From positions 1-64,000 of the forward strand of contig NZ_BHVX01000008.1 in assembly GCF_003851545.1 (NCBI RefSeq): 64,000 bases of DNA, written 5' to 3'. The stretch is from Ralstonia sp. SET104 (GTDB taxonomy: Bacteria; Pseudomonadota; Gammaproteobacteria; Burkholderiales; Burkholderiaceae). The position numbers were made by a program, and so were the translations under genes. This document shows positions 3,070 to 59,110 of this stretch, in pieces. Positions within the stretch are counted from its first letter, which is position 1. Each line of letters opens with the position of its first letter. Under the pieces are notes generated by a model, which was not told where the DNA came from, made no database searches, and saw nothing but the letters and a program-made list of their open reading frames with translations.

Positions 3070-4611
3070 TTAGAACGCGGCGGACTTCTTGAAATCCTCG
3101 ATCGCGGCACGCAGAGCGGCCTCATCGTCCTTCGACAGATCTTTCGTATCTTCGATGCGGTTGATGAGATCGGCGTACTTCGTCTTCAGCGTGTCGTGCA
3201 GGCCCTTTTCGAAAGCCAGGATGTCCTTCACGTCCACGTTGTCGAGGAAGCCGTTGTTGGCTGCGTACAGCGACGCGGCCAGCTGCCACACTTGCAGCGG
3301 CTGGTATTGCGGCTGCTTGAGCAGTTCGGTCACGCGGCGGCCGCGCTCGAGCTGCTTGCGGGTCGCTTCGTCCAGGTCGGAAGCGAACTGCGCGAACGCA
3401 GCCAGTTCACGGTACTGGGCCAAGTCGGTACGGATACCGCCGGACAGCTTCTTGATGACCTTGGTCTGCGCAGCACCACCCACACGCGACACCGAAATAC
3501 CGGCGTTGATAGCGGGGCGAACACCAGCGTTGAACAGATCGGTTTCCAGGAAGATCTGGCCGTCGGTAATCGAGATCACGTTGGTCGGCACGAACGCGGA
3601 CACGTCGCCGGCCTGCGTTTCGATCACGGGCAGTGCGGTCAGCGAACCGGTCTTGCCCTTGACTTCACCGTTGGTGATCTTTTCAATGTGGTCAGCGTTC
3701 ACACGAGCAGCACGCTCCAGCAGGCGCGAGTGCAGGTAGAACACGTCGCCCGGGTAGGCTTCACGGCCAGGCGGACGGCGCAGCAGCAGCGAAACCTGAC
3801 GGTAAGCCCAGGCTTGCTTGGTCAGATCGTCATACACGATCAGTGCGTCTTCACCGCGGTCGCGGAAGTATTCGCCCATCGTGCAGCCGGCATAAGCCGA
3901 CAGGTACTGCATGGCGGCCGAGTCGGACGCAGCAGCAGCCACCACGATCGTGTATTCCAGCGCGCCGTGCTCTTCGAGCTTGCGCACCACGTTGGCGATC
4001 GTCGAAGCCTTCTGGCCGATTGCCACGTACACACAGAAGATGCCCTTGCCCTTCTGGTTGATGATGGCGTCGACTGCCACGGCGGTCTTGCCGGTCTGGC
4101 GGTCGCCAATGATCAGCTCACGCTGGCCACGGCCGATGGGCACCATTGCGTCGATCGACTTCAGGCCGGTCTGCACCGGCTGGCTCACCGACTGACGTGC
4201 GATCACGCCCGGAGCGACCTTCTCGATCACGTCCGTCTTCTTGGCGTTGATCGGGCCCTTGCCGTCGATCGGCTGGCCCAGTGCGTTGACCACGCGGCCC
4301 AGCAGTTCCGGGCCGACCGGCACTTCCAGAATGCGGCCCGTGCACTTGACTTCCTGGCCTTCGGAAATGTGCTCGTACTCGCCCAGCACCACAGCGCCGA
4401 CGGAGTCGCGCTCAAGGTTCAGCGCGAGGCCGAACGTGTTGCCCGGGAATTCCAGCATTTCGCCTTGCATCACGCCCGACAGGCCATGAATGCGGCAGAT
4501 ACCGTCCGTCACGGAGATGACCGTGCCGGTGTTCTTTGCGTCAGCGCCAGCCTTCAAGCCCTCGATACGGGTCTTGATCAGGTCGCTGATCTCGGAGGGG
4601 TTCAGTTGCAT
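3070..4611 (-). CDS. atpA: F1Fo ATP synthase alpha subunit
   Basis: This 513-aa protein is the alpha subunit of F1, the non-catalytic nucleotide-binding partner of beta in the alpha3-beta3 hexamer. Walker A GDRQTGKT is at residues 169-176. The start [13 protein letters not shown] and the length match proteobacterial AtpA exactly. [18 protein letters not shown] carries the usual alpha-subunit signature around [13 protein letters not shown]. It is the sixth gene of the operon, between atpH and atpG. Confidence 0.97.
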
Positions 4612-8152: not shown

Positions 8153-9064
8153 TCACGCAACCTCTTTGTCGTTCTCTGGTCGCAGGCGCGCCAGCAAACC
8201 GTCAAACTCATCGAGGCTGCTGAACTGCACGGTTAACTGACCGCGACCTTTGGCCGCCAATTTGATCTGCACGCCCAAACCGAGTTGGTCAGCCAGTTCT
8301 TCCTCAAGGCGCGCAACGTCACGGCCACCCTGATGACCGCCCTTCTGCTTGAGTGACTTCAACTCAAACGGCTTGAGCGTCAACGCCACCAGTTTTTCCG
8401 TCTCACGCACCGAAAGGCGCTTGTTGACGATCTGGTTAGCCAATGTGATCTGGGTTGCGCCATCAACGGCCAGCAGCGCACGGGCATGGCCCATGTCGAG
8501 GTCGCCGGCCATCAGCATGGTCTGCACGGGCTGCGCGAGGTTCAGCAAACGCAACAGATTCGATACGGCGCTGCGCGAGCGACCGACCGACTCCGCTGCC
8601 TGCTCATGCGTGAACTGGAATTCACGCACCAACCGCGCAATGCCCTGCGCTTCTTCCAGCGGGTTGAGATCTTCGCGCTGAATGTTTTCGATCAGCGCCA
8701 TCGCGGCGGCGGATTCGTCCGGCACGTCCTTCACGAGCACCGGCACTTCGGTCAGGCCAGCGAGGCGCGAGGCACGGAAGCGACGCTCACCTGCGATGAT
8801 TTCGTACTTTGGCTTCGTGCCGTCGGACTCGACCTTGCGCACCAGGATCGGCTGCATCAGCCCTTGCGCGCGAATGCTCGCGGCCAGTTCCTGCAATGCA
8901 CCCTCGTCCATCCGCGTGCGCGGCTGATACTTGCCGGGCTGCATTTGCTCGAGCTTCAGCACCGTCGGCGCGCCCTCCTGCTTGGCGGTCTCGACAATCT
9001 CGGCGGGACTGCCGAGCAGTGCTTCGAGGCCACGTCCCAATCCCTTTTTCTTCATTGTGCTCAT
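8153..9064 (-). CDS. parB: Chromosome partitioning protein ParB
   Basis: This 303-aa ParB binds parS and loads onto DNA as a CTP-dependent clamp for origin segregation. The N-terminus KKKGLGRGLEALLG is the region that stimulates ParA. The CTP-binding box II GERRFRASR is at residues 92-100. A central helix-turn-helix (EQAAESVGRSRSAVSNLLRL) follows, then a C-terminal dimerisation domain. AGAGGAAC lies 4 nt before the ATG, fixing the start. It is downstream of parA by 27 bp. Three matching parS sites lie within 3.6 kb. Confidence 0.96.
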   Translation of the reverse strand: MSTMKKKGLGRGLEALLGSPAEIVETAKQEGAPTVLKLEQMQPGKYQPRTRMDEGALQELAASIRAQGLMQPILVRKVESDGTKPKYEIIAGERRFRASRLAGLTEVPVLVKDVPDESAAAMALIENIQREDLNPLEEAQGIARLVREFQFTHEQAAESVGRSRSAVSNLLRLLNLAQPVQTMLMAGDLDMGHARALLAVDGATQITLANQIVNKRLSVRETEKLVALTLKPFELKSLKQKGGHQGGRDVARLEEELADQLGLGVQIKLAAKGRGQLTVQFSSLDEFDGLLARLRPENDKEVA

Positions 9065-9091
9065 GTTGTTCCTCTTGCCACAGAGCCGGCG

Positions 9092-9877
9092 TCAGGCTGG
9101 CATGTCGGCCATCTGCCGCACGCGCGCGATCATTTCGGCGCCAAAATCCAGGTACGCCTTGGCACCCTTCGATGCCACATCGAACGCCACGCCGGGCATA
9201 CCGTACGACGGCGCCTCGGCCAGACGCACGTTGCGCGGGATCACTGTCTTGAATACCTTGTCGCCGAAGTGCGATTCAAGTTGCGCCGACACCTGCTGTT
9301 GCAGCGTCACGCGCGGGTCAAACATCACGCGCAGCAGACCGATCACCTTGAGATCACGGTTCAGGTTGGCGTGCACCTGCTTGATGGTATTGACCAGATC
9401 CGACAGCCCTTCGAGCGCGAAGTACTCGCATTGCATTGGCACCACCACGCCGTGCGCGGCGCACAGGCCGTTGAGCGTAAGCAGCGACAGCGATGGCGGA
9501 CAATCGATGAGGACAAAATCGTACGCATCGGCCACCTCGGCCAGCGCGAGCTTGAGGCGGTTTTCACGATGCTCCAGATCGACCAGTTCGACTTCAGCGC
9601 CGGCCAGATCGCGGTTGGCGGGCAGCACATCATAGCGCCCGGCTTCCGAGTGCTGACGCGCTTGCGCAATCGTCGCCAGGCCGACCAGCACCTGGTAGAC
9701 GCTGAACTCGAGCGTGTGCTTGTCGATGCCCGAGCCCATCGAGGCATTGCCTTGCGGGTCGAGGTCGACCAGCAGCACGCGCTGCCCTTGTGCGGCCAGC
9801 CCCGCCGCGAGGTTCACCGTGGTGGTGGTCTTGCCGACCCCACCCTTCTGGTTGGCGATCACGAAAATATTCGACAT
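9092..9877 (-). CDS. parA: Chromosome partitioning ATPase ParA
   Basis: This 261-aa ParA/Soj ATPase works with ParB to move origins apart. The deviant Walker A QKGGVGKTTT is at residues 10-19. The second motif LLVDLDPQGNAS follows, and Walker B is FVLIDCPPSL. Its short N-terminus without a DNA-binding extension marks it as the chromosomal (type Ib-like) form rather than a plasmid ParA. It is co-directional with rsmG upstream and parB downstream. Confidence 0.96.
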   Translation of the reverse strand: MSNIFVIANQKGGVGKTTTTVNLAAGLAAQGQRVLLVDLDPQGNASMGSGIDKHTLEFSVYQVLVGLATIAQARQHSEAGRYDVLPANRDLAGAEVELVDLEHRENRLKLALAEVADAYDFVLIDCPPSLSLLTLNGLCAAHGVVVPMQCEYFALEGLSDLVNTIKQVHANLNRDLKVIGLLRVMFDPRVTLQQQVSAQLESHFGDKVFKTVIPRNVRLAEAPSYGMPGVAFDVASKGAKAYLDFGAEMIARVRQMADMPA

Positions 9878-10580: not shown

Positions 10581-12529
10581 CAAGCTGCCTCGCCTTCAGC
10601 ACTCGAACGGGGGCCAACTTGGCCGCGAAGCACGCCCTTTTTCAAATGCACCAGCAGCAGCGACACCGCCGCCGGCGTGATGCCAGAAATACGCGAGGCT
10701 TGGCCGATGGTCTCGGGCTTGTGCTTGGCCAGCTTCTGCTGCACTTCGATCGACAGGCCACGCACCTGCGAATAGTCGAAGTCCGCCGGCAGGCGGGTGT
10801 TCTCATTGGCGCCCAGGCGCTCAACTTCATCCGCTTGGCGGGCAATGTAGCCGTGGTATTTGATGCCGATCTCGACCTGTTCGCGGATCTGTTCGGCCAG
10901 CAGCGGATCTTCTGCAAATGGGCCTTCGGGCGCGTACTTGCCACCCTGCATGCCCATTAGGGATTCGTACGTCACGTTCGGGCGGCGCAGCAGATCGGCC
11001 AGCGAATATTCGCGCTCGATGCCTTTGCCCAGCACTGGCTCTGCGTCTTCTAACGGAAGGATCGCCGGGTTCACCCAGGTCGATTTCAGCCGCTCTGTTT
11101 CACGTGAAACAGCATCGCGCTTGCGATTGAACGCGTCCCAGCGGGCATCGTCGACCACACCAATGGCGCGGCCGGCTTCGGTCAGACGCATGTCGGCGTT
11201 GTCTTCCCGCAAGCTCAAGCGGAACTCGGCGCGGCTGGTGAACATGCGGTACGGCTCGGTCACGCCCCGTGTGATCAGATCATCAACAAGCACGCCCAGG
11301 TAGGCTTGGTCGCGGCGCGGCGTCCACGCATCTTTGCCCTGAACTTGCAGACCGGCATTGATACCGGCGAGCAAGCCTTGGGCTGCGGCTTCTTCATAAC
11401 CGGTTGTGCCGTTGATCTGGCCTGCGAAGAACAGCCCGGAAATCGCCTTGGATTCAAGCGAAGACTTCAGCGCACGCGGGTCGAAGTAGTCGTACTCGAT
11501 GGCATAACCTGGGCGCAGGATGTGCGCGTTCTCCAGGCCGCGCATCGAGTGGATCAGGTCGAGCTGTACGTCAAACGGCAGGCTGGTCGACACACCGTTT
11601 GGATAGAATTCGTTGGTCGCCAAACCTTCTGGCTCCAGGAAAATCTGGTGGCTGTCCTTGCTGGCGAAACGGTGAATCTTGTCTTCAATGCTCGGGCAGT
11701 AGCGCGGCCCCACCCCTTCGATCACGCCTGTATACATCGGCGAGCGGTCAAGCCCAGCGCGAATAATGTCGTGCGTGCGCTCGTTGGTGTGCGTGACCCA
11801 GCATGGCACTTGGCGCGGATGCATATCCGCACGGCCCATAAACGAGAACACCGGCACCGGATCAAGATCGCCCGGCTGCGCTTCCAGCGCCGAGAAATCA
11901 ATGGTGCGACCATCAATCCGCGGCGGCGTGCCGGTCTTCAGGCGCCCTTGCGGCAACTTCAATTCTTTCAGGCGCGCTGACAATGACACCGCTGCCGGAT
12001 CGCCCGCGCGGCCGCCGGTGTAGTTGTTCAGCCCCACGTGGATCTTGCCGTCGAGGAACGTCCCCGCCGTCAGTACCACGGCACGTGCACGGAACTGCAC
12101 CCCAACCTGCGTGACCGCGCCGATCACACGATCGCCGTCAACGAGCAGATCTTCCACCGCCTGCTGAAACAGCATCAGGTTCGGCTGGTTTTCGAGGCGA
12201 TGGCGGATCGCCGCCTTGTACAGGACGCGGTCCGCCTGGGCGCGGGTCGCACGGACGGCCGGCCCCTTGCTGGAATTGAGGATGCGAAACTGGATCCCGC
12301 CCTCGTCCGTGGCGATGGCCATGGCACCGCCCAGCGCATCGACTTCCTTGACCAGATGGCCCTTGCCAATGCCCCCGATGGACGGGTTGCAGCTCATCTG
12401 CCCCAGCGTCTCGATGTTGTGCGTTAGCAGCAGGGTCTGACAACCCATGCGTGCCGCCGCCAAAGCGGCCTCGGTGCCGGCGTGTCCGCCGCCCACCACG
12501 ATCACATCGAATTCAATTGGATACAGCAT
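10580..12529 (-). CDS. mnmG: tRNA uridine-5-carboxymethylaminomethyl modification enzyme MnmG
   Basis: This 649-aa FAD enzyme (formerly GidA) works with MnmE to modify the wobble uridine (mnm5/cmnm5) of certain tRNAs. The FAD-binding [10 protein letters not shown] starts at residue 13. [15 protein letters not shown] and [13 protein letters not shown] are family signatures. The start at 12529 was chosen because AGGAGGAAG lies just upstream. The segment encoding VSRET contains a perfect parS site in reverse reading. It is the first gene of the mnmG-rsmG-parA-parB operon. Confidence 0.96.
11096..11111. promoter_or_regulatory. parS: parS site inside mnmG
   Basis: TGTTTCACGTGAAACA is a perfect 16-bp palindrome identical to the universal bacterial parS consensus. 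It is embedded in the mnmG coding region and read there as part of the codons for V-S-R-E-T. It is a centromere-like loading site for the ParB encoded 2 kb away. Confidence 0.92.
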
Positions 12530-12573
12530 GGCTTCCTCCTCGCATGGAGGCATCGAAAATTTGGAGAAGCGGA

Positions 12574-12579
12574 ATTATA
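12574..12579 (-). promoter_or_regulatory. Possible -10 element for the mnmG operon
   Basis: On the minus strand a perfect TATAAT lies 45 bp upstream of the mnmG start codon. No good -35 hexamer is seen at 16-18 bp, so activation or a weak promoter is possible. Confidence 0.4.
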
Positions 12580-12642
12580 AGTCGGGCAGCTACACCGCAG
12601 TTCGACGATGCGGTAATCGAGACGAAATTCCCTCGCCTTTCG

Positions 12643-12658
12643 TGTTTCACGTGAAACA
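12643..12658. promoter_or_regulatory. parS: parS site upstream of mnmG (first copy)
   Basis: TGTTTCACGTGAAACA is a perfect parS palindrome 114 bp upstream of the mnmG start codon. It is identical to the copy 40 bp to its right and to the one inside mnmG. ParB bound here could also affect transcription of the mnmG-parB operon. Confidence 0.93.
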
Positions 12659-12682
12659 TGCACCGCTTACTTCAATCGTTTG

Positions 12683-12698
12683 TGTTTCACGTGAAACA
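12683..12698. promoter_or_regulatory. parS: parS site upstream of mnmG (second copy)
   Basis: This is a second intergenic TGTTTCACGTGAAACA, 40 bp centre-to-centre from the previous copy, nearly four helical turns. A half-site-like GTGAAAC occurs a little further right at about 12708 but has no partner arm. Confidence 0.93.
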
Positions 12699-39697: not shown

Positions 39698-40237
39698 TTA
39701 CTTCTTCTTGCGCTTCTCAGGCCGCGCCAGCATCGTGCCGCGGCATTTCTTGGCGCCACAGCGGCACGCAAACTGTTCCTTCAACGCCTTGGTCTGGCGG
39801 CCTTCAATGACGAGGCCGTAGTCGTAGAACAGTTCTTCACCGGGTTCGATGTCACGCAGCGCGTGAATAAACACCTGGCCGTCTTGTTCGCGCGCTTCGC
39901 AATTCGGCTTGCAGGCGTGGTTGATCCAGCGCGCGCGGTTGCCACCAAACTTGGCGTCGATCACGCTGCCGTCTTCCAGGCTGAAGTAGAACGTGTGGTT
40001 CGGGTCGGTCGGATCGTGTGGATGGCGGCGCAGCGCCTCTTTCCACGTGATGTGCTCGCCCTTGTATTCGATGATCTTCTTGCCGCGGGCGATGGCGACC
40101 ACGGCGTACACACCGCGTCCGTGCACGCCCGATTCACGCACCTCAATGCGATCGCGGCGGCGCAGTTTGGCCGGAGCTTCCGGCGCGGGCGCAGACTCAG
40201 CCAGGGCCGGCGTGGCATCAGGGGACGTACGTGTCAT
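39698..40237 (-). CDS. SET domain protein-lysine methyltransferase
   Basis: This 179-aa protein is a complete SET domain of the eukaryotic-like kind. It has RGVYA (residues 41-45), the SAM/active-site pseudoknot pieces INHACKPNC (105-113) and ELFYDYG (135-141), and a post-SET zinc cluster C158-x-C160-x4-C165 that would use Cys113 (or Cys109) as partner. Bacterial members are thought to methylate protein lysines; the target is unknown. The C-terminus ends in a run of Lys/Arg. The start at 40237 was chosen over a longer frame running into the DnaA-box region. Confidence 0.87.
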   Translation of the reverse strand: MTRTSPDATPALAESAPAPEAPAKLRRRDRIEVRESGVHGRGVYAVVAIARGKKIIEYKGEHITWKEALRRHPHDPTDPNHTFYFSLEDGSVIDAKFGGNRARWINHACKPNCEAREQDGQVFIHALRDIEPGEELFYDYGLVIEGRQTKALKEQFACRCGAKKCRGTMLARPEKRKKK

Positions 40238-40887
40238 GGGGCAAATGGCGCGGTGAAGCGGAACAAAAACGTCGATCAACGAAGCCGTGAGCCTACACCA
40301 AAAGCATGGCACCTCGACACGTGCCGCCGTCCCGTGCAACCCGGTCCATGTGAATAACCAATGTGGATAACCCGGCCCGCAACTGTGGATAACTACCGTC
40401 AAAGCCTGTTGGCTGTCTGTGGCTGCCCTGTCGATGGCGTGGGCACAAGTGATGCACTTGCCGGCAGGGGCACCGAAAAAATCAGCAATCTATCCACCAG
40501 AGGACACACCCGGTACCCCTGGTTTTGCTTGCAGCAAGTAATTGAACACAAAGCGCTTTTTCCACTTATCCACAGAAACTGTCCACCGTTATCTACTACT
40601 ACTATCTGTATACATAAAGAAAAAGGTAAACCAACCAATCGACTTGCGTCGAACCAATCAGCGAACACGCAAGCCAACCGAAAACCACGACATCCAACGG
40701 CAATGCTGATGTGATGGGATCGCCTCGCAACGTAGGCCCCATGCGGGGTTTGCGGAACCCACATGCCATGCGCGGTTACAAAGCTCACGTGCCGGCGCTG
40801 TTCGCATGCCGGTATCATGTCGCCCTTGGAGCCATCCCCCGGGCGGCTCTGTTGTGTGTTTTATCTACTCTTGAAGGGAGTCAAGCA
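40238..40887. other. Large gap with origin-like DnaA-box region (650 bp)
   Basis: No gene is seen in this stretch between the SET gene and hupB. Perfect DnaA boxes TGTGGATAA are at 40362-40370 and 40384-40392, and TTATCCACA at 40566-40574. A one-mismatch box (TGTGAATAA) is at 40349-40357. A DnaA-trio run at 40593-40605 is followed by moderately A-rich sequence. The rightmost part (about 40640-40887) should hold the hupB promoter; TATCAT at 40813-40818 is a possible -10. Confidence 0.7.
40553..40621 (+). other. Origin-unwinding-like module, copy A (DnaA box plus DnaA-trios)
   Basis: DnaA box TTATCCACA (40566-40574), an 18-nt gap, then CTACTACTACTAT (40593-40605), whose complementary strand reads as repeated 3'-GAT trios. 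TATACATAAAGAA follows. This is the order described for the basal unwinding part of bacterial oriC. The 69-bp block matches copy B at 58570-58638 at 62 positions by direct comparison. Confidence 0.65.
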
Positions 40888-41166
40888 ATGACGAAAACCG
40901 AACTGATCGACGCCATCGCCAGCGGCGTAGACGGTCTGACCAAGGCCAAGGCCGAGCAGGCACTGAATGCGACGCTGCAAGCCATCATGGAATCCGTTGG
41001 CAAGGGTGATACGGTCAGCCTTATCGGCTTTGGTACCTTCAGCCAGGGTGAGCGCGCCGAGCGCATGGCTCGCAACCCGCGTACCGGTGAGGAAATCAAG
41101 GTCGAAGCTGCCAAGACGGTCAAGTTCAAGGCCGGTCAGAAGTTCAAGGACGCTGTCAACGGCTAA
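40888..41166 (+). CDS. hupB: DNA-binding protein HU (beta type)
   Basis: This 92-aa HU protein starts MTKTELIDAIASGVDGL and has the HU signature GFGTFSQGERAERMARNPRTGEEI, covering the beta arm with its Arg-Asn-Pro tip. It bends DNA and takes part in nucleoid structure and origin function. GAAGGGAG lies upstream of the ATG. It is directly downstream of the DnaA-box region. Confidence 0.96.
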   Translation: MTKTELIDAIASGVDGLTKAKAEQALNATLQAIMESVGKGDTVSLIGFGTFSQGERAERMARNPRTGEEIKVEAAKTVKFKAGQKFKDAVNG

Positions 41167-47395: not shown

Positions 47396-48163
47396 ATGTC
47401 TCAGAAGAAAGCGCCGTTGTTCGAGATTCGCAGCGGCACCGTCGACGCCCTGCTGCTGTCGCCGCGCACCGCCGACATGGACGCGCTGGCCGCCGAACTC
47501 ACGCGACGCTTTGCCGACACGCCGGAGTTTTTCTCCAACGACGTGATCGCCATCGACGTGCGCCGCCTGGCCGAGGATGAGCGCCTGCCCATCGACCGTT
47601 TGGTGGAGACCCTGACTGCGCTGCGCGCCCGCGCGATCGGCGTGGTCGCCAGTCCCGAGCAGGCCGAGTGGGCCCAGGCCTTTGGTTTGCCATTGCTTGA
47701 TAGCCACGGCCGTCGCCAGCGCAGCGAGAAAGACGCCAAGGAAAGCGATGACAGCCAGGAGGCTCCCGAGCACGCACAGGCCGCCGCAGCCCCTGCCGTT
47801 CCGGCCGTCGACGTCGCGGCCATGCAACCCGGCACGATGATCATCGACCGCCCCCTGCGTTCCGGCCAGCGCATCTACACGCGGGGCGACCTTGTTGTGC
47901 TCGATCTGGTGAGCGACGGCGCCGAGGTGATCGCCGAGGGCAACATCTACGTGTATGCCTCGCTGCGCGGCCGCGCGCTTGCGGGCGTCAAGGGCAACCT
48001 GGACGCGCGCATTTTCTGCACGTGCCTGGAGCCCCAACTGATTTCCATCGCCGGCATCTACCGCACCGGCGAAACCCCGTGGCCGGAGCCCTACGCCAGC
48101 AAGCCTGCGCAGGTCCGGCTCGCGGACAACACGCTGGTTTTCGAACCGTTGCGGATGAAATAA
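47396..48163 (+). CDS. minC: Septum site-determining protein MinC
   Basis: This 255-aa FtsZ-assembly inhibitor has an N-terminal inhibitory domain ([20 protein letters not shown]). A variable linker with an Ala/Pro/Glu-rich stretch lies around 110-145. The C-terminal beta-helix domain has [26 protein letters not shown] and the dimer/MinD-binding part. The Min order minC-minD-minE is complete. Confidence 0.95.
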
Positions 48164-48209
48164 CACGCTGCGTGCGTGCCGAGCGATTTAACTCACAGAT
48201 ATACGAGCC

Positions 48210-49028
48210 ATGACCAAGATCATCGTAGTCACCTCCGGCAAGGGCGGCGTCGGCAAGACGACCACCAGTGCGGCGTTTTCCGCCGGCCTTGCGCTGCGCG
48301 GTCACAAGACTGCCGTCATCGATTTCGACGTCGGCCTGCGCAACCTCGACCTCATCATGGGTTGCGAGCGTCGCGTGGTGTATGACCTGATCAACGTGAT
48401 CCACGGCGAGGCCAATCTGAACCAGGCCCTCATCAAGGATAAGAAGTGCGAGAACCTGTTCATCCTCCCCGCCTCGCAAACGCGCGACAAAGACGCGCTC
48501 ACGCGTGAAGGTGTCGAGAAGGTGATCGAGGGCCTGAAGGAAATGGGCTTCGAATACATCGTCTGCGATTCGCCTGCCGGTATCGAATCGGGCGCGCTGA
48601 TGGCGATGTACTTTGCCGATGAAGCCATTGTCGTGACCAACCCGGAAGTGTCTTCCGTGCGCGACTCCGACCGCATCCTGGGCATCCTGTCGTCCAAGTC
48701 GCGCCGCGCGGTGGAAGGCAAAGACCCGATCAAGGAACACCTGCTGCTCACACGCTACAACCCGAAGCGCGTGTCCGAAGGCGAGATGCTGTCGCTCACG
48801 GATATTCAGGAAATCCTGCGCATCAAGCTGATCGGCGTGATTCCGGAATCGGAAGCCGTGCTGCAAGCGTCCAACCAGGGCGTGCCCGCCATCCACCTGG
48901 AAGGCTCCGATGTGGCCAACGCCTACCACGACGTGATCGACCGCTTCCTGGGCAAGGAAAAGGAACTGCGTTACGTGGAATACGCGAAGCCTGGTTTTCT
49001 GCAACGCCTGTTTGGTGGCGGCAAGTAA
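48210..49028 (+). CDS. minD: Septum site-determining ATPase MinD
   Basis: This 272-aa membrane-cycling ATPase recruits MinC and oscillates with MinE. The deviant Walker A KGGVGKTT is at residues 11-18 and Walker B in IVCDSPAGIE. The C-terminal amphipathic membrane-targeting helix (PGFLQRLFGG) ends the protein. It is 46 bp after minC and 15 bp before minE. Confidence 0.97.
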   Translation: MTKIIVVTSGKGGVGKTTTSAAFSAGLALRGHKTAVIDFDVGLRNLDLIMGCERRVVYDLINVIHGEANLNQALIKDKKCENLFILPASQTRDKDALTREGVEKVIEGLKEMGFEYIVCDSPAGIESGALMAMYFADEAIVVTNPEVSSVRDSDRILGILSSKSRRAVEGKDPIKEHLLLTRYNPKRVSEGEMLSLTDIQEILRIKLIGVIPESEAVLQASNQGVPAIHLEGSDVANAYHDVIDRFLGKEKELRYVEYAKPGFLQRLFGGGK

Positions 49029-49043
49029 AGGAGACGCACACAC

Positions 49044-49298
49044 ATGTCGATTCTGTCTTTCCTGTTGGGCGAGAAGAAGAAGACTGCAACCGTCGCCAAG
49101 GAACGCCTGCAGATCATCCTCGCCCATGAACGCACCGCCAGCGGTGCGCCTGCCGACTACCTGCCCGCGCTGCAACGCGAGCTGGTGGCCGTGATCTCGA
49201 AATACGTGAAGATCGGCAACGACGACATCAAGGTCAACCTCGAGCGTCAGGACAATCTGGAAGTGCTCGAAGTGAAGATCGAGATTCCGCAGGCCTGA
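49044..49298 (+). CDS. minE: Cell division topological specificity factor MinE
   Basis: This 84-aa protein has an N-terminal membrane/MinD-binding part ([30 protein letters not shown]) and a C-terminal dimerisation domain (ISKYVKI...[10 protein letters not shown]). It drives MinD release and pole-to-pole oscillation. It is the last gene of the min operon. Confidence 0.96.
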
Positions 49299-58143: not shown

Positions 58144-58569
58144 GATGTTCTCTCCGCAAAAGGTACGGAGGAAGGAGCCCCAGGCGTCTCGGCAAGTTCC
58201 TGCTGGTGCATGCCTGTGACAACTTGCCAACAATCGATGTCTGGCGCACGCCGTTGGCGCAGACACAAACGCCTGCCCCCAGGCACGCCCTGCACTTCTG
58301 CTGCAACAGCGCGTTCACGCCGTAGCCAGCGCTGCGGCTGCCGCCCCGAGACCACACACAACGGTTTGCCGAACCCGATGTGGATAACTCCACCGGCCCC
58401 TGTGAACAACTCCAGGGAAAAGCGTGTTGGTTCTTTGGGGTTAGCGTGCGCACAGCGTGGGAACAACGTTCAACCGCAGAGACCGCGTGCAATGCCATTG
58501 CCCGACACATCCACACCGCAGCACACGCTGTCCGATGGGTTGTCTGTTCTGTAACGCATTGATGTAACA

Positions 58570-58638
58570 GCGCTTTTGGAACTTATCCACAGGACTTGTC
58601 CACCGTTATCTATTACTACTATCTGTATACATAAAGAA
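58570..58638 (+). other. Origin-unwinding-like module, copy B (DnaA box plus DnaA-trios)
   Basis: The DnaA box at 58583-58591, an 18-nt gap, then CTATTACTACTAT at 58610-58622, followed by TATACATAAAGAA. The spacing equals copy A exactly, and the 69-bp blocks match at 62 positions. One trio differs (CTATTA instead of CTACTA). Copy B has one upstream perfect box where copy A has two. Confidence 0.6.
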
Positions 58639-58751
58639 GTAAACCGATAAACCCACTGTGAGGCACCGAGCCCGCGATGGGGTTGTGGGCAAACAGCCCT
58701 GCCCCGTGCCAGAACGGGCGCTCCCCTGTCTCTTCAAGACATCAAGATGCC

Positions 58752-58780
58752 TTGTTGCAACGATATATTTCGAATATATT
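58752..58780 (+). promoter_or_regulatory. arsR promoter/operator
   Basis: TTGTTG (58752-58757), a 17-bp spacer and TATATT (58775-58780) form a possible promoter. The spacer and -10 contain ATATAT-TTCGA-ATATAT (58763-58779), a dyad likely bound by ArsR. The predicted start of transcription is at or next to the arsR ATG (58787), so the message may be leaderless. Confidence 0.55.
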
Positions 58781-58786
58781 GGAAAT

Positions 58787-59110
58787 ATGGAAGAAAACGA
58801 CGCTATCCGCTCCCTCGCCGCGCTGGCCCACGGCATCCGCCTGCAAGTGTTCCGCCTGCTCGTGGTGGCCGGGCCGACTGGCCTCACGCCAGGCGCCCTT
58901 GCTGAACAGCTCGACGTGCCGGGCGCCACGTTGTCGTTCCACCTCAAGGAACTGACGAACGCGCATCTGGTAACGCAGGAGCGTGATGGTCGCAATCTGA
59001 TCTATCGCGCCGCGTACGACCACATGAACGCCCTGCTGGGCTTCCTGAGCGCCAACTGCTGCCAGGGGGAGGCTTGCCTGGAAGCCCGTTTCACCGATTG
59101 CAATTGCTGA
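58787..59110 (+). CDS. arsR: ArsR family arsenic-responsive repressor
   Basis: This 107-aa winged-HTH repressor has the HTH around LTPGALAEQLDVPGATLSFHLKELTNAHLV. The C-terminus carries the Cys cluster NCCQGEACLEARFTDCNC, suited to binding As(III) or methylarsenite and unlike the alpha3 site of the E. coli protein. It lacks a good ribosome binding site. It is the first gene of arsR-arsI-arsC-aqpS. Confidence 0.93.
   Translation: MEENDAIRSLAALAHGIRLQVFRLLVVAGPTGLTPGALAEQLDVPGATLSFHLKELTNAHLVTQERDGRNLIYRAAYDHMNALLGFLSANCCQGEACLEARFTDCNC

Follow-up and report, generated by a model that had tools for sequence, protein, structure and literature searches.

The stretch of DNA analysed here (the window) comprises 64,000 nucleotides of Ralstonia sp. 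SET104, and the element under study is module B, an origin-like module near its right end that has a counterpart, module A, between a SET-domain gene and an HU-family gene. The original prediction, made from the same letters, had singled out two 69-bp blocks (40553-40621 and 58570-58638) as near-identical and similarly oriented, and this observation holds: the blocks agree at 62 of 69 positions (90%; E = 1.5e-20 in the genome), and the spacing between DnaA box and DnaA-trio is the same in A and B, being 19 nt after TTATCCACA or 18 nt after TTATCCACAG. The further claim that the flanks are unrelated was wrong for the first ~200 bp, given that the 195 bp upstream of A and B are 55% identical (mean 27% and maximum 37% in ten shuffles) and carry boxes in matching places. 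As read from its parts, B is a complete origin-like module of ~270 bp, larger than the 69-bp repeat.

Architecture of modules A and B

The features of the two modules, and the genes beside them, are as follows (offsets are counted from the trio).

58379..58644 (+), module B: origin-like, bounded by the first upstream DnaA box and the second GTWWAC site; an island conserved in Ralstonia between flanks that do not align, with the box register of A
58379..58387 (-), B DnaA box 1: TTATCCACA on the minus strand, at -232
58401..58409 (-), B DnaA box 2: at -210; TTGTTCACA in the window, TTATTCACA in 12 of 13 relatives
58507..58515 (+), B weak box: at -104; ACATCCACA in the window, TCATCCACG in 12 of 13 relatives
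58583..58591 (+), B trio-proximal DnaA box: at -28; TTATCCACA, with CTATCCACA in genomes G010 and G012
58596..58604 (+), B second trio-proximal box: at -15; TTGTCCACC in the window, TTATCCACC in 13 of 13 relatives
58611..58622 (+), B DnaA-trio: TAT TAC TAC TAT
58605..58654, B low-stability DNA: second least stable 50 bp in the window
58625..58644 (+), B methylation motifs: two GTWWAC sites, GTATAC at 58625 and GTAAAC at 58639, each kept in all 14 B copies
40362..40631 (+), module A: in the SET-HU intergenic region, with the architecture of B; GTATAC at 40608, GTAAAC at 40626
40362 (-), 40384 (-), 40490 (+) and 40566 (+): starts of the A DnaA boxes
40594..40605 (+), A DnaA-trio: TAC TAC TAC TAT
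39698..40402 (-), SET-domain gene beside A: longest reading frame, overlapping the A boxes
40711..41166 (+), HU-family gene beside A: HU domain starts near residue 60 of the frame
58658..59110 (+), ArsR-family gene downstream of B: a different neighbour in 4 of 14 genomes

The box offsets are identical in the two window modules (-232, -210, -104, and -28). Perfect boxes occupy -232, -210, and -28 in A and -232 and -28 in B, while each remaining box carries two mismatches. Most boxes in the A and B copies of relatives keep this register within 1-2 bp; the first boxes of their B copies mostly lie one base further out, and the first box of a third copy, C, is found at about -223 or -234. Moreover, a perfect or near-perfect box at -28 is accompanied by the trio in all aligned copies (16 of A, 14 of B, and 12 of C), and many copies have a second box-like site at -15. 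Four TAN trios are present in each of A, B, and C in genome G008 and in the genome of the window, the number expected of a basal unwinding system (BUS) being at least three NAN trios. In a ranking of the window by nearest-neighbour energy only, A contains the least stable 50 bp and B the second. The original prediction had proposed a conserved unwinding module on the chromosome; box register, trio, low-stability DNA, and genus-wide conservation lend this proposal support at the level of sequence, and B is probably able to unwind.

Two smaller points concern the same DNA. The alignment of 42 copies contains a AAAGCGCTTTT-like element, kept in A, B, and C, that starts ~17 bp ahead of the trio-proximal box. 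In addition, the true start of the SET-domain gene probably lies inside its longest frame.

Copies in the genus and retention of module B

We searched 16 Ralstonia genomes with a 90-bp profile built from these 42 copies (16 A, 14 B, and 12 of the 15 C). Three matches were obtained in 13 of the 16 genomes, two in the fragmented assemblies G002 and G013, and four in G012. There is thus no many-copy repeat family in the genus genomes, the outcome of the copy-number check suggested in the original prediction, and the idea of a dispersed repeat is rejected. The prediction had counted two modules; the genome holds three, with C lying on a separate contig (G000:C11:109709-109796, minus strand). Assigned by position and flank, A is present in all 16 genomes, whereas 14 have B and 15 have C, the gaps falling in two fragmented assemblies. 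The second match in G002 (E = 1.3e-16) was counted as neither B nor C. As to whether the copies are retained, B is absent only from the two most incomplete of the 16 genomes. The fourth match in G012 is weak (G012:C1:3354294-3354331, E = 0.047) and lies 23 kb from C on the same strand.

The arrangement of the three modules is also constant. In all 11 genomes that have both on one contig, A and B share an orientation and are separated by 18.0-34.4 kb, and C is inverted, 127-152 kb away on the other side of A, in the six genomes with a shared contig (G006, G008, G009, G010, G012, and G015). A segment of G008 measuring 1.196 Mb, which starts at 2.56 Mb and runs past dnaA to +340 kb, was scanned for a DnaA box with at most one mismatch, a gap of 8-22 nt, and four TAN trios. 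Exactly three places fit, namely A, B, and C, and lowering the requirement to three trios adds no other; perfect DnaA boxes number 13 in this region. A stricter pattern (perfect box, 5-30 nt, TAYTACTACTA) occurs in 16 of 16 Ralstonia genomes compared with 2 of 184 other genomes of the family.

All 30 copies of A and B have GTATAC and GTAAAC immediately beyond the trio. Among the 15 C copies, both motifs are found in none, one motif in three, and neither in 12. GTWWAC pairs within 40 bp occur five times in the same 1.196 Mb of G008, two of them being those of A and B. GTWWAC is methylated in R. solanacearum, according to its methylome report (PMC5390034), and a study on B. cenocepacia describes it as methylated there and found near the origins (PMC7364216).

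Across seven species pairs, identity within B falls from 89-93% in the core and 75-79% in the upstream arm to 14-42% in the upstream flank and 12-63% in the downstream flank. A conservation profile likewise shows B as a conserved island; it covers 15 A copies, without G013, and 12 of 14 B copies, G010 and G012 having failed the box pattern. Over 14 genomes the left neighbours of B form four groups and the right neighbours three, and the ArsR gene is not beside B in G004, G010, G011, and G012. Because the flanks turned over and B stayed, the module has outlived the changes of its neighbours; it is a sharply bounded island between turned-over flanks, and therefore selection keeps it. C is likewise an island, with one flank alike in 15 of 15 copies. 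That B might be a control element of the downstream gene, as the original prediction allowed, is unlikely, and a promoter element of arsR is rejected, since the downstream neighbour differs in 4 of 14 genomes and the module stays.

A former plasmid origin was another suggestion of the original prediction. The 17 called genes include minC, minD, minE, a 5'-nucleotidase-like gene, polyphosphate kinase 2, an rRNA methyltransferase, and an ABC transporter; no Rep-type (plasmid replication) family is found among all 17 and the four genes to the right of B, two of the 17 having matched no family. Genes were called by a simple composition script that misplaced at least one gene, putting a plus-strand gene over parB and parA. 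A former plasmid or chromid origin is rejected, no Rep-type family having been matched by these called genes beside B, B being a paralogue of A, and homologues of A occupying the address of A in other genera. Similarly, B is unlikely to be the partner in a bipartite oriC of the H. pylori kind, an interpretation that we reject because each copy is complete and because A and B lie 18-34 kb apart and, in G008, 236 and 212 kb from dnaA. As a separate observation, minC, minD, and minE (47396-49298) stand between both origin-like modules.

Main origin, accessory origin or DnaA sink

We consider it somewhat probable that B is maintained by selection as a paralogue of the origin module of chromosome 1 (A) and serves as an accessory platform for initiation, one on which the same complex of DnaA would form. 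What can be read directly from the DNA are the elements, the register they keep, and how far they are conserved; from these we infer DnaA binding and melting. DnaA would bind the -232/-210 and -104 boxes together with the -28/-15 box pair, and would then spread onto the trio strand and melt the adjoining AT-rich DNA, as in the basal unwinding system. A would be the ancestral and probably the main origin, and B, copied passively within ~1 minute of initiation at A, would be an origin kept in reserve or used at low frequency, and would in addition take up DnaA-ATP immediately after firing at A. Methylation of the GTWWAC sites beside the trio may gate A in the same way as B, but would not gate most C copies. 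A study on B. cenocepacia gives a measured fork speed of 33 kb per minute (PMC4948915), at which forks from A would reach B in ~0.5-1 minute, so that B would double almost at once after initiation. Such near-immediate doubling suits a reserve origin and a DnaA sink both.

The alternative that comes closest is that B is a non-firing DnaA sink or regulator, similar to datA or DARS, which assembles DnaA soon after A has been duplicated and so limits re-initiation. The features measured here do not separate this from a B that fires, which is a point against the accessory origin, as is the fact that the compared genomes are not independent. Early duplication would follow from the position of B (18.0-34.4 kb from A, on the same side and in the same orientation, in 11 of 11 genomes with a shared contig), and the conserved box set suggests an ordered assembly of DnaA. 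Titration alone, however, needs neither the conserved trio and the two adjacent GTWWAC sites, which are kept in 14 of 14 B copies, nor the low-stability DNA measured in the window copy, and we regard a sink without firing as possible but on the unlikely side. A bolder extension of the accessory-origin reading, which we advance tentatively and consider rather unlikely, is that chromosome 1 of Ralstonia naturally uses more than one origin, with A firing in most cells and B (perhaps C) in some cells or conditions, A and B being gated together by GTWWAC methylation, and that several other Burkholderiaceae genera with two or more modules do likewise.

Whether A or B would be the main origin was approached through segregation genes and strand signals. 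The segregation features of the window are these.

11096..12698, three parS sites: at 11096, 12643, and 12683, in and beside mnmG
8153..9877 (-), parB (8153-9064) and parA (9092-9877): adjoining rsmG and mnmG

The parS sites, three per genome in 16 of 16 genomes, lie 28 kb to the left of A and 46 kb from B, and parAB and parS together stand 28-32 kb from A, a nearness of the kind that chromosome-type parS and parAB have to an origin. To control for gene orientation, 4-fold sites were scored on the coding strand, with an accuracy of 69% for the genes used in training and no cross-validation. In all seven genomes this score is below zero over the 60 kb to the left of A (40 kb for G000) and above zero from A to B; over the 60 kb to the right of B it is above zero in six of the seven, the value for G000 (seven genes) being -0.02. 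A k-mer arm classifier with a cross-validated accuracy of 0.92-0.94, into which gene orientation could leak (hence the repeat at 4-fold sites), puts the switch no more than 1 kb away from A in two genomes, G015 and G012. For G008 it returns a near tie between A (-33.6) and a point at +95 kb (-34.1), 3-mers giving 3.27 Mb and 4- and 5-mers 3.19 Mb. Left-arm sign is seen in 70 of 77 k-mer bins left of A. Plus-strand genes, pooled over seven genomes, make up 116 of the 395 called left of A, whereas the A-B interval has 111 among 170 and the side to the right of B has 210 among 348; this change of gene polarity at A is a local signal that does not last past dnaA in G008. Plain GC skew was rejected for placing the origin, being too weak. 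We also dropped the near-zero k-mer asymmetry between A and B (seven genomes) as proof that both fire, given that the asymmetry is also near zero 50-90 kb to the right of A and that the 4-fold score is positive from A to B.

Several results weigh against A as the main origin. Six of the seven 4-fold values between A and B lie within two standard errors of zero, the G008 segment that runs from C to a point 60 kb short of A does not resemble the left arm (+0.11 +/- 0.11), and in G008 the 4-fold score reaches its cumulative minimum at 3,208 kb, 28 kb to the right of A and 5 kb to the right of B. Moreover, motifs resembling FtsK-orienting polar sequences (KOPS) keep left-arm polarity to the right of A, with counts of 1:14 up to dnaA versus 26:3 beyond it in G008, 5:16 in G015, and 2:26 in G012, and coding-strand skew at third codon positions (GC3 skew) switches sign near dnaA. 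In G008, GC skew reaches its minimum at 3,275 kb, codon-3 skew at 3,376 kb, and KOPS at 3,398 kb, with A at 3,180 and dnaA at 3,416 kb, which puts the GC-skew minimum 95 kb to the right of A, and the codon-3 and KOPS minima 40 and 18 kb from dnaA. The strand signals thus conflict: the 4-fold score and the k-mer classifier mostly point to A, and KOPS, GC3, and GC skew do not. The cumulative minimum of G008 does not separate A and B. Nevertheless, on balance we favour A over B, and A is the likelier main chromosome origin.

The KOPS switch near dnaA in G008, with left-arm-like counts right of A in G015 and G012, and the GC3 sign change would fit a working chromosome-1 origin at dnaA, with A, B, and C as left-arm sites that respond to DnaA but are of a different kind. 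The DnaA boxes between rpmH and dnaA, and the listing of dnaA as one of two predicted origins of R. pickettii 12D (PMC4403523), point in the same direction. There is no box-plus-trio at dnaA in G008, however; parAB and parS are placed close to A, and the score at 4-fold sites has a weak right-arm character between A and dnaA. Moreover, the GC-skew transition reported for C. metallidurans is ~90 kb from dnaA and adjoins 213 nt with three perfect boxes (PMC2864759), which is the span of the -232 to -28 boxes in the A homologue. We find an origin at dnaA improbable on this evidence.

The segment of G008 between A (3180352) and dnaA (3415996) deserves mention in its own right: it measures 235 kb, and over most of it KOPS and GC3 are left-arm like and the 4-fold score weakly right-arm like. 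This conflict is a possible trace of a rearrangement or an origin shift. It would be reconciled if the segment, which is 235 kb in G008 versus 95 kb in G040, a genome of another genus, came from the left arm and the slow signals were lagging.

Finally, that B is a decaying relic of a duplication seems very improbable. B and C do sit on a long common stem in the tree, box 2 is degraded in the window B, and the -28 box has one mismatch in the B copies of G010 and G012, but B is intact while both flanks turned over and its core is about as conserved as that of A.

History in the family and comparison with known systems

In a tree of 45 Ralstonia modules and six modules of a second genus (g3), B and C fall on one side of a branch with support of 100/100. 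B forms one clade (97/86), and A and C are each not resolved as single clades. The three modules probably predate the divergence of the sampled Ralstonia because all of them occur across the genus. Homologues of A stand between the same HU and SET genes at nine of nine g3 loci and at the one locus of a third genus (g5), and the boxes of the nine g3 loci, at -232 or -231, -210 or -209, and -28, are within 1 bp of those of A. To judge from this placement, the position between the SET and HU genes, common to two other genera, is the ancestral address. We infer that g3 is Cupriavidus-like, on the basis that the GC-skew transition of C. metallidurans is ~90 kb from dnaA and the module of G040 is 95 kb from dnaA.

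A second module, with a trio and several GTWWAC sites, is found in five g3 genomes (G040, G058, G114, G080, and G017). That of G040 is inverted, 144 kb from the A homologue, and lies between tag-like and fieF-like genes (named by eye). Its geometry suggested that C might be the orthologue of the second g3 module, an idea that is not supported, the neighbours being tag-like and fieF-like genes there versus PAP2 and GGDEF genes at C. In G008, no tag homologue was found in 1.2 Mb, and a fieF homologue lies 75 kb from C.

Searching 120 genomes of the family (10 of them Ralstonia) with the profile gave matches at E <= 0.01 in 97, often weakly. Two modules are found in other genera as inverted pairs ~3 kb apart around two genes (G028 and G105), as a tandem pair ~0.5 kb apart (G065), and as inverted pairs 47-49 kb apart (G068 and G119). 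Nine of these 10 paired copies have a box with at most one mismatch at -28, the exception being the second copy of G105, and a trio-like run with several GTWWAC sites is present in all 10. Repeated origin modules may, from the pairs read in these five genomes, be a habit of the family. The GTWWAC-rich inverted pairs of G028 (G028:C6:92600-96600) and G105 (G105:C1:2248200-2252200) bracket cation/proton-antiporter-like and glutamate-cysteine-ligase-like genes (named by eye).

In bacteria, a single origin per chromosome is taken to be the rule. Gao (2015) proposed two putative origins 291 kb apart, at hemE and dnaA, on chromosome 1 of R. pickettii 12D, and stated that there was then no evidence of two functional origins in use on one chromosome (PMC4403523). 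The idea of more than one origin on the main chromosome of Ralstonia is common to that work and ours, and A, B, and C are other sites than hemE and dnaA. In G008, where hemE lies 289 kb from dnaA, both places have DnaA boxes at or near them but no box-plus-trio module and no profile match. Beside hemE (G008:C1:3126375-3126563), at the address of the published R. pickettii 12D oriC1, there is a DnaA-like box pair without a trio. The rpmH-dnaA intergenic region has the boxes TTATCCACA and TTTGTGGATAA close together, again without a trio, a pair that may serve the autoregulation of dnaA or mark an old origin. None of the top results of our literature search described A, B, and C together, supplementary files and subscription papers being outside its scope. 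With three complete modules across the genus, a conserved box register, and main, secondary, and diverged candidates, the multi-origin question becomes testable; exact candidate sites are supplied for a family in which the main origin of B. cenocepacia c1 was left 'uncertain', and a conserved methylation motif is linked to the trio.

Bipartite oriC regions, as in H. pylori and B. subtilis, have more than one DnaA-box cluster, and their parts flank dnaA and jointly form one origin. The presence of more than one cluster is shared with Ralstonia, where each copy is instead complete and the copies are 18-34 kb or 127-152 kb apart. The datA and DARS sites of E. coli are non-coding clusters of DnaA boxes that are not known to carry a trio or a melting region. 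B resembles them as a non-coding cluster that possibly tunes initiation, but has a trio and a low-stability region. In the basal unwinding system, DnaA is directed by a pair of boxes to the trio DNA, and strand separation follows (PMC8287927). The DnaA box pair, short spacer, and trio repeats of such origins are shared here, with box and trio in each Ralstonia copy and AT-rich DNA adjoining; what differs is that Ralstonia has complete modules in three places on one chromosome, none of them beside dnaA. On chromosome 1 of C. metallidurans CH34, a 213-nt stretch with three perfect DnaA boxes lies at the GC-skew transition, ~90 kb from dnaA (PMC2864759); the passages that describe it make no mention of a trio. 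This stretch spans the same length as the -232/-210/-28 boxes of the A homologues and is presumably the same site, of which Ralstonia holds two further copies. Finally, the R. solanacearum methylome report lists three conserved GTWWAC sites between HU and SET, read as promoter control (PMC5390034); the same gene pair flanks A, where we read the sites as associated with a candidate origin.
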